Origin: Halalkaliarchaeum sp. AArc-CO
Lineage (GTDB): Archaea; Halobacteriota; Halobacteria; Halobacteriales; Haloferacaceae
Reading direction: 5' to 3'
DNA: 64,000 nt
NCBI RefSeq assembly: GCF_024972735.1
Contig: NZ_CP087723.1
Coordinates: 496,001-560,000 of the forward strand
The position numbers were made by a program, and so were the translations under genes. Shown here piece by piece: positions 11,340 to 14,031 of the stretch; within the stretch, counting starts at the first letter, position 1; the number at the start of each line of letters is the position of its first letter. The notes under the pieces are model-generated. The model worked only from the letters and a program-made list of their open reading frames with translations. It ran no database searches and was not told the origin of the DNA.

Positions 11340-11420
11340 TCAGGAACTCCGGAACTCCTTCGTGCCGGGCACCTCGCCCGGATGGCAACTTACTCAAGCC
11401 GGGCTGTCGTTTCCCCGGGT

Positions 11421-12401
11421 ATGACGACCCACCGGGAACCGCTCGGTTCCGTGCTGGAGACGGTCGGCGAGACGCCGCTGGTTCGCGTTCGGGCGTCCTC
11501 CGAGGAGGTGCCGGTTTACGCGAAGCTGGAGTCGTTCAACCCCGGCGCATCGATCAAAGATCGCATCGGGAAGTACATGCTCGAACGCATGCTCGAACGG
11601 GGCGATCTCGACCCCGGCGGAACGGTGATCGAACCCACCGCCGGAAACACCGGGATCGGGCTGGCAGTCGCGGCCGGACAGCTCGACTTAGAGGCGGTCT
11701 TCGTCGTGCCGGAGGGGTTCGCCGTCGAGAAGCAACAACTAATGCGTGCACTCGGCGCCGAGGTAATCAACACGCCCACCGAGGACGGGATGGGGTATGC
11801 CATCCAGCGGGCACACGACCTCGCCGAGGAACTCGACAACGCGGTGGTCCCCCAGCAGTTCAAAAACCCCCTGAACGCCGAGGCGCACTACGAGACCACC
11901 GGCCCGGAGTGTTACGAGGCGCTCGACGGCCGGGTCGGCGCCGTCGTGGCCGGCTGTGGCACCGGCGGCACCCTGATGGGAATGGGCCGGTACGCCCGCG
12001 AGCAGCACCCCGACACGCTCGTGATCGCGGTCGAACCCGAGGGGTCGATCTTCCGGGAGTTCCTCGGTCGGGACGTCGAAGAGGGGGAGTACAAGACCGA
12101 GGGGATCGGCACGCACGACACCTCGACCAACGAGCTGTTCGATCCGGAACTCGTCGACGACGTGTACGCGATCTCCGACCGGGACGTCCACGCGGAGATG
12201 CAGCGGCTCGCCGCAGAGGAAGGACAGCTGATCGCCTCCTCGGCGGCCGCAAACAGCGTCGCCGCACGACGGGTCGCCCGGCAGATCCGCGACGGGGAGC
12301 TGGACGCTCCCCACGACGCCGTCGTCACCGTCTTCCCCGACTCGAGCGAACGGTACCTCTCGAAGGGCGTGTACGGCAGCTTCGAGGAGTGGACCGGATG
12401 A
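11421..12401 (+). CDS. cysK: Cysteine synthase family PLP enzyme
   Basis: A fold-type II PLP enzyme that should make cysteine from O-acetylserine (or a related activated serine) and sulfide. The 326-residue protein has the PLP lysine K46 in NPGASIKDRIG, the substrate loop PTAGNTGIGLA and the phosphate-binding GCGTGGTLMG. The ATG at 11421 is preferred over the in-frame ATG at 11382, because a TATA-like ttactcaag sits about 30 bases upstream of 11421 and the family N-terminus begins at PLGSVLETVGETPLV. There is no CBS domain, which speaks against cystathionine beta-synthase in the strict sense, though archaeal members can accept several acceptors. Confidence 0.88.
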   Translation: MTTHREPLGSVLETVGETPLVRVRASSEEVPVYAKLESFNPGASIKDRIGKYMLERMLERGDLDPGGTVIEPTAGNTGIGLAVAAGQLDLEAVFVVPEGFAVEKQQLMRALGAEVINTPTEDGMGYAIQRAHDLAEELDNAVVPQQFKNPLNAEAHYETTGPECYEALDGRVGAVVAGCGTGGTLMGMGRYAREQHPDTLVIAVEPEGSIFREFLGRDVEEGEYKTEGIGTHDTSTNELFDPELVDDVYAISDRDVHAEMQRLAAEEGQLIASSAAANSVAARRVARQIRDGELDAPHDAVVTVFPDSSERYLSKGVYGSFEEWTG

Positions 12402-12426: not shown

Positions 12427-13452
12427 ATGAGTTCCTCCGGCGGCGAGTTCGCGTTCGAACTCAGGGTGTGCCGCTGGGCGGAGCTCGCCTGGGCCCCGGC
12501 GGGCTCGAACGCGGCGTCCGACGTTCCCCGGGTCGCCGTCGTCGCCCGACAGCTGGGCACTCGAAAGCGGCGGTGGGACACGGTGATCGTCGAGGCGGAT
12601 CCCGCCGGCCTGCGCGAGCGTGCGGCGTTCGGCTCCCGCGAACTCGACTCGGATCTCCTGTTCGTCCTCCGGAACGCCCCCGCCGACTGGATGTGGTATC
12701 GCGACGCTCTTCCGGATCCCGGCTACCCGTGGCGGTACGTCCGGGAGACGATTCACCGGGCCAGCGCCCGTGATCTCCTCGAGACCCGACGAAACGGCAA
12801 CCGGATCCGGATCAAACGGATCGCCCCGTATCCGGACTGGGTCCGGCGGCTCGTCGCGATCGAGAACAAGCCGGACCTCGACGCCTCTGCGGCCCGGGCG
12901 CTTGCGGGCCAGCTCCAGCACGACGTCGACCGTGGACTCGCCGACGAGGTGTGGCTCGCGACCGCCACGACCGGCGGCCGGGTCGAGCGGGCGCTTCTCG
13001 CCGACTTCCCGGTCGAGGCGGGCGTCCTCGCGTTCGACTTCTCGGCGGGCGTCCGACCGGAAGCCGCCAGCGTGGAGTGGCTTCCGAGCCGGCTCGACGC
13101 GGGTAATCCGTCCGAAAACGGCGACCGCCCAGAGGATCGCAAGCGCAGACGGCTCGAGCTCGCCGAACGGGCTTTCGGCCGGGGGTGGCGCTCCTACCAC
13201 CGGACGATGCGTCCCGACTGTCGGGCGTTCGAACTCCGCCGGGACGGCCGGCTGCTGTCCCCGTGGTGTACGGCGAAGGAGAGAAAACAGACGGCTGCGG
13301 AATGTTCCGGCAACTGTCAGGCGTTCTCGCCGGAGCCGCCGGCCTGGCGCACCCGCGGGTGGCCGATCGACGGGGGCCCAGGGAAGGGGATAACGCGGCT
13401 GCTCCAGAAGCGTCGCGAACGGGCCAGGTCGGGAGGCCGGGACGGGACGTGA
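12427..13452 (+). CDS. Conserved haloarchaeal protein, possible Fe-S PD-(D/E)XK nuclease-like (DUF5787-type)
   Basis: A 341-residue soluble protein of a haloarchaeal family (recalled as DUF5787). In the middle is PYPDWVRRLVAIENKPDL: D137, then E146-N-K148, which matches the PD-(D/E)XK nuclease core. A glutamine-rich GQLQHDV helix follows at about 161-167, where RecB/Cas4-type nucleases carry motif III. One cysteine is near the N-terminus (C15, LRVCRWAE) and four cluster at the C-terminus (C265, C281, C293, C297). One N-terminal plus three C-terminal cysteines around a PD-(D/E)XK core is the layout of Cas4/AddB Fe-S nucleases. No function is established. It starts 25 bases after cysK and is probably cotranscribed. 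Confidence 0.62.
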   Translation: MSSSGGEFAFELRVCRWAELAWAPAGSNAASDVPRVAVVARQLGTRKRRWDTVIVEADPAGLRERAAFGSRELDSDLLFVLRNAPADWMWYRDALPDPGYPWRYVRETIHRASARDLLETRRNGNRIRIKRIAPYPDWVRRLVAIENKPDLDASAARALAGQLQHDVDRGLADEVWLATATTGGRVERALLADFPVEAGVLAFDFSAGVRPEAASVEWLPSRLDAGNPSENGDRPEDRKRRRLELAERAFGRGWRSYHRTMRPDCRAFELRRDGRLLSPWCTAKERKQTAAECSGNCQAFSPEPPAWRTRGWPIDGGPGKGITRLLQKRRERARSGGRDGT

Positions 13453-13491: not shown

Positions 13492-14031
13492 TCACTCTGC
13501 CGTCTCGACGGTGATCGAATCGCGCTCGACGGCGAGTTTGAACGTCGGCACGGTGCGGTAGACGACCTCGACGACGCCTTTCCGTTCGAGGCTCCGGAGC
13601 CCCTTTCTGACTTCGTCGACGTCGGGGTCGACGTCGAACTCCGCTCTGAGCTTGTGGAGCACGCTCACAACGCTCTCGGAGCGATCTTCGGGACCGGCCA
13701 CGACCGCGAAGATTCGCGTTTGCAGTTCCGGAACCCGGATCACGTCTGGGACTCCCTCGCCGTCCCCGCTTCCGACGGTTCCGTTGCCGTCCCCGGGGGC
13801 GGTCCCCGACTCGACGCCGGGTTCGACGTCGACCAGCTCCGCGGCCTCGTCGGTCGCCCGGATCAGGCTGTTCTCGTCGCGGTAGTAATACTCGTTCAGG
13901 TGGTCCTCCAGGTAGCGGTGCACCTCGCTTCCCGACTCGAGTCCCCACCGATCGCCGAGTTCGCTGTTCTTCGTCGGCTGCAGCGCCACGACGTCGGCCA
14001 GACGCGTTCGTTCCTCCTCGGTGAGGGCCAT
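13492..14031 (-). CDS. Small haloarchaeal winged-helix-like protein (DUF5797-type)
   Basis: A 179-residue protein that converges with the preceding gene. The N-terminal part (about 1-55, MALTEEERTRLADVVALQPT) predicts helices suited to a helix-turn-helix. The C-terminal part (about 100-175) looks like a second winged helix, with LRSLERKGVVEVV near residue 150. A Gly/Asp-rich low-complexity linker at about 70-95 separates them. I recall this family as DUF5797; its role is unknown and a DNA- or RNA-binding regulator is only inferred. A strong TATA box (cttataagc, about 14055) lies 27 bases before the ATG, so the mRNA should be leaderless. Confidence 0.65.
   Translation of the reverse strand: MALTEEERTRLADVVALQPTKNSELGDRWGLESGSEVHRYLEDHLNEYYYRDENSLIRATDEAAELVDVEPGVESGTAPGDGNGTVGSGDGEGVPDVIRVPELQTRIFAVVAGPEDRSESVVSVLHKLRAEFDVDPDVDEVRKGLRSLERKGVVEVVYRTVPTFKLAVERDSITVETAE

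Follow-up and report, generated by a model that had tools for sequence, protein, structure and literature searches.

The window analysed here, a stretch of 64,000 nucleotides from the haloarchaeon Halalkaliarchaeum sp. AArc-CO (NZ_CP087723.1, positions 496,001 to 560,000), contains an open reading frame encoding 341 amino acids from an ATG start (Table 1). The sole Pfam match of the encoded protein is DUF5787 (PF19100), obtained with an E-value of 2.3e-105 and 352.7 bits (cut-off 25) and covering profile positions 1–278 of 278, which bears out over the full profile the DUF5787-type assignment made in an earlier note on this DNA. Likewise, D137, E146, K148 and the five cysteines of the protein (C15, C265, C281, C293 and C297, its total complement) sit where that note had placed them. 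DUF5787 occurs as two paralogues, A and B, and the window gene belongs to A.

Table 1. Position of the DUF5787-A gene, its predicted parts and its convergent neighbour in the window.
Feature	Position	Strand	Basis
Gene of DUF5787 paralogue A; predicted PD-(D/E)XK nuclease carrying a winged-helix insertion and, at the C-terminus, a Cys4 module	12427..13452	+	ORF, PF19100, AF2
First helix, residues 7–21, with invariant E7, E11, E19 and nearly invariant C15 (12469–12471)	12445..12489	+	AF2, conservation
Core strand beta2, residues 49–57, with invariant D51 (12577–12579)	12571..12597	+	AF2 strand, 148/148
Insertion, residues 59–134, between beta2 and beta3; ArsR-like winged helix	12601..12828	+	AF2, Foldseek PDB, conservation
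E146-N147-K148, predicted E-x-K catalytic motif closing core strand beta3 (139–147)	12862..12870	+	148/148, AF2
Q162, helix after beta3	12910..12912	+	148/148
C-terminal module: helix AERAYGxGWR, then C265, C281, C293, C297; predicted Cys4 metal centre	13129..13341	+	148/148, module alignment
DUF5797 gene, convergent neighbour of DUF5787-A	13492..14031	-	PF19110, E 3.2e-77

The reading frame begins 25 bp past the stop codon of a PALP gene (cysteine-synthase-like; window positions 11382–12401), which, as a local rearrangement, occupies the slot usually filled by a NUDIX hydrolase gene. Such a NUDIX gene, encoded on the same strand, precedes paralogue A in 75 of 80 loci and is immediately adjacent in 66, with a median gap of 74 bp. 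Downstream, a DUF5797 gene was tallied in 56 of the 80 neighbourhoods, mostly in convergent orientation; DUF5797 is another haloarchaeal family without a name that is conserved beside DUF5787-A. DUF5787-A is also accompanied in 72 of 80 loci by an S10-like ribosomal protein paralogue (PF00338; for example L137:6648-6977, +), usually located two genes upstream and on the opposite strand.

Predicted fold and candidate active site

AlphaFold2 (AF2) models were obtained for the window protein, using an alignment of 62 rows (pLDDT 80.4, pTM 0.79), and for a shorter orthologue (pLDDT 86.3, pTM 0.82). Both models comprise, in window numbering, helix A (7–21), two strands (36–44 and 49–57), an insertion (59–134), a strand (139–147), a helix (153–169) and a strand (174–180); the chain then continues with two further strands and a long helix and closes in a small Cys-rich part. 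The order up to strand 174–180 is that of the PD-(D/E)XK core, alpha-beta-beta-[insertion]-beta-alpha-beta, with D51 on beta2 and E146-x-K148 ending beta3 in the two orthologues. A Foldseek search of the viral library placed MmcB-like DNA repair proteins and uncharacterised phage proteins on top (E 9e-4 to 4e-2, probability mostly 0.97–1.00), the MmcB-like matches having probabilities of 0.96–0.99 and E-values from 1.6e-3. Against the PDB, the restriction endonuclease PaqCI was matched with a probability of 0.77–0.91 over ~240 columns (E 0.04–0.13 for DNA-free chains). The TM-scores of the Foldseek matches are low (about 0.2–0.3 by query length) and the PDB E-values exceed 0.01, in part because the insertion divides the core.

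At the level of sequence profiles, the best nuclease match in Pfam among 37 DUF5787 members was PDDEXK_7, found in one member at an E-value of 0.07 and thus below significance; no significant profile match to a known nuclease was obtained, and PDB sequence searches were likewise without a match. Comparisons by hhalign with home-built Cas4, NucS and Hjc alignments had no power, as these known relatives also failed to match each other. Weak matches to DUF7140 in six members did not recur in ten proteins rescanned singly and were dropped, and the defence and phage libraries yielded no meaningful match to DUF5787. Because the sequence profiles fell short of significance, the fold assignment rests on the AF2 models and on conservation. 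The core order, the conserved catalytic residues and the structural match to known members that mark the PD-(D/E)XK superfamily are all found, and based on the two models and the Foldseek matches to MmcB-like and PaqCI nucleases we consider it very probable that DUF5787 adopts the PD-(D/E)XK-type fold put forward in the earlier note. The fold of paralogue B is predicted through its alignment to A.

To delineate the conserved residues we assembled 80 relatives from genome contigs together with 40 loci picked for carrying a second family copy, resulting in an alignment of 113 A-type and 35 complete B-type sequences (148 in total). Invariant throughout are E7, E11, E19, R41, Q42, G44, R48, D51, E146, N147, K148, P149, Q162, D166 and the four C-terminal cysteines C265, C281, C293 and C297. 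D51, which falls within an R-R-W-D-T strand, is likely the metal-binding Asp of the predicted site, and E11 in the first helix is a candidate for the motif-I Glu. The earlier note had built its core from D137 and E146-N-K148. Its second element stands, with all three residues kept in 148 of 148 sequences, whereas D137 is retained in 101 of 113 A and 31 of 35 B proteins and is otherwise replaced by E, N, A, G or Q; its variation across several lineages rules it out as the catalytic Asp, the invariant Asp being D51 instead. Of the residues named there, E146, K148 and the C-terminal cysteines hence proved invariant, D137 did not, and C15 is present in 145 of 148. That note had overlooked D51 and E11 as well as the winged-helix insertion and a second paralogue with a PIP box. 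Together, the predicted fold and the conserved site suggest that DUF5787 is probably an active nuclease.

The insertion spans 76 residues and aligned in the Foldseek PDB search with ArsR-type winged helices over about 75 columns, with probabilities of up to 0.99–1.00. R65 is its single residue invariant across both paralogues, the winged helix being the variable part of the protein.

Two paralogues and their distribution

Nearly every haloarchaeal genome searched contains two anciently diverged DUF5787 paralogues, which are reciprocally monophyletic with a support of 1.0 in the phylogeny and both match the full PF19100 profile (E 2e-105 for A, 3e-90 for B). In the source genome, paralogue B is located at L082:1441-2448 (+), corresponding to about 1751076-1752083 of G000:C2, and is about 31% identical to A. 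It carries a PIP box, QAGLDRF, 16 residues ahead of the C-terminus. Near their C-terminus, 38 of 38 B proteins contain a PIP-like motif, typically Q-[SA]-G-L-D-[RQ]-F one residue off the end, and none of the 113 A proteins does, the window protein included. Judged by sequence, the B tail motif agrees with the PIP consensus QXXhXXaa and with the PCNA-binding peptide of A. fulgidus, KTTQSTLDSFFK (PMC4929162), with most B motifs containing one aromatic residue (Q..L..F) where the consensus has two. When the B tails were shuffled, about 0.08% of trials generated the strict motif close to the end. Of the 1,412 proteins called in the neighbourhoods, 37 have a strict PIP right at the C-terminus, 35 of them being B proteins and two non-B proteins. 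The PIP box thus predicts that B binds PCNA. The neighbours of B include an MBL-fold gene in 25 of 36 loci and an aIF2-gamma/PIN/Rpo7 group on the opposite strand in about 20–23 of 36.

Of 242 genomes searched in the class, 240 contain DUF5787, almost always in at least two copies, and Haloferax volcanii, a genetic model, is among the carriers. Some of the single-copy genomes are draft assemblies. The two genes are present together and absent together: both are missing in six genomes from three lineages of the same order (f5, f38 and f41), several of the six being incomplete. The A/B pair apparently predates the main radiation of the haloarchaea, whether it evolved there or was acquired; alternatively, those lineages may have lost both genes jointly. 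One genome devoid of DUF5787 (G134) has another open reading frame with a possible restriction-endonuclease fold (L114:1082-2107, -; D...LIEVTRP). In 393 genomes searched across the phylum, convincing homologues were confined to Halobacteria; the one match from another lineage with an E-value below 0.001, a methionyl-tRNA synthetase, was deemed chance. A search of viral contigs by peptide patterns yielded no viral copies. In Natronorubrum bangense, paralogue A is located on the chromosome as well as on an 828-kb plasmid (L062 and L063).

Cysteine module, proposed function and alternatives

The C-terminal cysteines follow a helix with the consensus A-E-R-A-[YF]-x-x-G-W-R and are spaced C-x15-C-x11-C-x3-C in the window protein, a CxxC pair being absent. 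A β-hairpin is predicted between the first two of them, C265 and C281. Within the source genome, this module is convincingly carried by two DUF5787 genes only. By their positions in the sequence, C265, C281, C293 and C297 would make up a complete tetrad without C15. The latter is replaced by Ser in two Halobaculum A copies and by Ala in one B copy, and given these three replacements a strict requirement for the N-terminal cysteine appears unlikely. The last cysteine is directly followed by Pro in many DUF5787 members, a feature of many Fe-S sites, and C-x3-C-P is unusual among zinc knuckles. CDGSH Fe-S proteins matched the stretch AERAYxxGWRxxxxPxC in PDB sequence searches with E-values of 0.04–0.9; this short match was not significant and was deemed chance.

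Cas4 holds a [4Fe-4S] cluster by three C-terminal cysteines and one N-terminal cysteine (PMC3466216), and the earlier note had proposed the same arrangement here, with C15 and the last three cysteines as ligands. A cluster of the Cas4/AddB type would be consistent with a first-helix cysteine and a Cys-rich C-terminus flanking a PD-(D/E)XK core, as they do in Cas4 and AddB (PMC3466216), with the near-invariance of C15, and with the Pro after the last cysteine. Against it stand the four rather than three C-terminal cysteines, all equally invariant and sufficient by themselves, their different spacing lacking a CxxC pair, and the exchange of C15 for Ser or Ala. Furthermore, the Cas4 profile (PF01930) matched neither the window protein (E up to 5) nor any of 37 members (E up to 10), Cas4 and AddB structures are absent among the top Foldseek matches listed, and in DUF3799, a related nuclease, a zinc ion takes the place of the cluster (PMC3466216). 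We therefore regard the Cas4/AddB-like cluster as unlikely. That the nuclease fold is real and the module a structural zinc site free of Fe-S chemistry has somewhat less than an even chance: the four invariant cysteines with their predicted hairpin and the precedent of DUF3799 argue for it, but no zinc-ribbon or zinc-finger Pfam match was obtained at a meaningful E-value, and the C-x3-C-P ending is atypical of zinc. For the predicted Cys4 centre as such, Fe-S in preference to zinc is a nearly balanced proposition, leaning slightly towards the negative.

As none of the neighbours of A (NUDIX hydrolase, DUF5797) and B (aIF2-gamma, Rpo7) is a repair gene, gene context leaves the function undecided. 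A role for paralogue A as a non-cutting DNA-binding regulator or scaffold, in which a winged helix is joined to an inactive nuclease of retained fold, could explain why the insertion resembles ArsR-type regulators, and would accord with a NUDIX hydrolase gene instead of a repair gene as the usual upstream neighbour; it is nevertheless quite improbable, as E11, D51, E146, K148 and Q162 are invariant in all A and B proteins and it is the winged helix that varies. Still less credible is an RNA-processing nuclease tied to the translation and transcription genes near B. The aIF2-gamma, PIN and Rpo7 genes do lie beside B in about 60% of loci, but B is encoded on the strand opposite to this group and its C-terminal PIP box suggests a DNA clamp as partner.

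The reading we prefer, and hold to be likely, is that A and B are an ancient haloarchaeal pair of metal-dependent PD-(D/E)XK nucleases for genome maintenance, with B predicted to be tethered to the clamp. A role of DUF5787 in DNA maintenance as such we rate as fairly likely, and the DNA-processing role anticipated in the earlier note gains from the PIP box in paralogue B. In such a nuclease, Mg2+ or Mn2+ would be bound by D51 and E146, perhaps with E11, K148 would position the attacking water and Q162 would contact the site. The winged helix, placed between the two catalytic strands, may grip duplex DNA near the cut, and the tetra-cysteine metal centre (Fe-S or Zn) would staple the C-terminal segment onto the core. 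Paralogue B, with the same core and module plus the PIP box, would be guided to intermediates of replication or repair by the sliding clamp PCNA, the putative substrate being branched, damaged or flap DNA. Nucleases of this kind often act as dimers; A may hence work either alone or as a dimer partner of B, such an A–B partnership being putative. A more far-reaching version, in which DUF5787-A/-B would be an obligate, haloarchaea-specific clamp-tethered pair with a new Cys4 (possibly Fe-S) centre that performs a core step of genome maintenance outside NucS, Hjc, Fen1, MutS and MutL, is speculative and on the unlikely side. DUF5787 is unannotated and yet carried by almost every haloarchaeon, Haloferax volcanii included, and a class-wide PCNA-targeted PD-(D/E)XK nuclease, as predicted here, would be a candidate for a component still missing from the replication or repair machinery of archaea.

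Comparison with characterised nucleases

The Pfam entry of DUF5787 (PF19100) defines the family and gives no function, and the literature searched contained no function or mention of it; the A/B split, the predicted nuclease core, the winged helix and the PIP box are added here. MmcB, a PD-(D/E)XK endonuclease conferring mitomycin C resistance in Caulobacter and implicated in crosslink repair (PMC9578287), represents a family that ranks with the best matches of the DUF5787-A model in Foldseek. The MmcB-like matches comprise 145–192 amino acids, however, too few for the winged-helix insertion and the Cys4 module of DUF5787, and no sequence-level match between DUF5787 and MmcB was found. The best nuclease among the PDB fold matches, the Type IIS endonuclease PaqCI, is a PD-(D/E)xK enzyme with the catalytic residues D54, E73 and K75 (PMC10201449) and has a D...ExK active site like the one predicted for DUF5787. 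PaqCI is a restriction enzyme whose recognition domain is separate, whereas DUF5787 gives no sign of a restriction function. Cas4 and AddB have a nuclease core with cysteines at both ends, as predicted for DUF5787, and in this broad sense the likeness to a nuclease with a cysteine staple holds; the replaceable N-terminal cysteine, the four invariant C-terminal cysteines at another spacing, the inserted winged helix and the lack of a CRISPR link set DUF5787 apart.

NucS/EndoMS, an archaeal RecB-type nuclease, pairs its PD-(D/E)XK-type core with a PIP motif at the C-terminus (PMC4929162), a likeness that extends to paralogue B only. Its N-terminal OB/Sm-like domain has no counterpart in the DUF5787 models, which have a winged helix inserted into the core instead; the NucS profile (NucS_C, PF01939) matched none of 37 DUF5787 members, and no sequence relation was found. 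NucS was present in 18 of the 25 relatives searched, compared with the near-universal occurrence of DUF5787.
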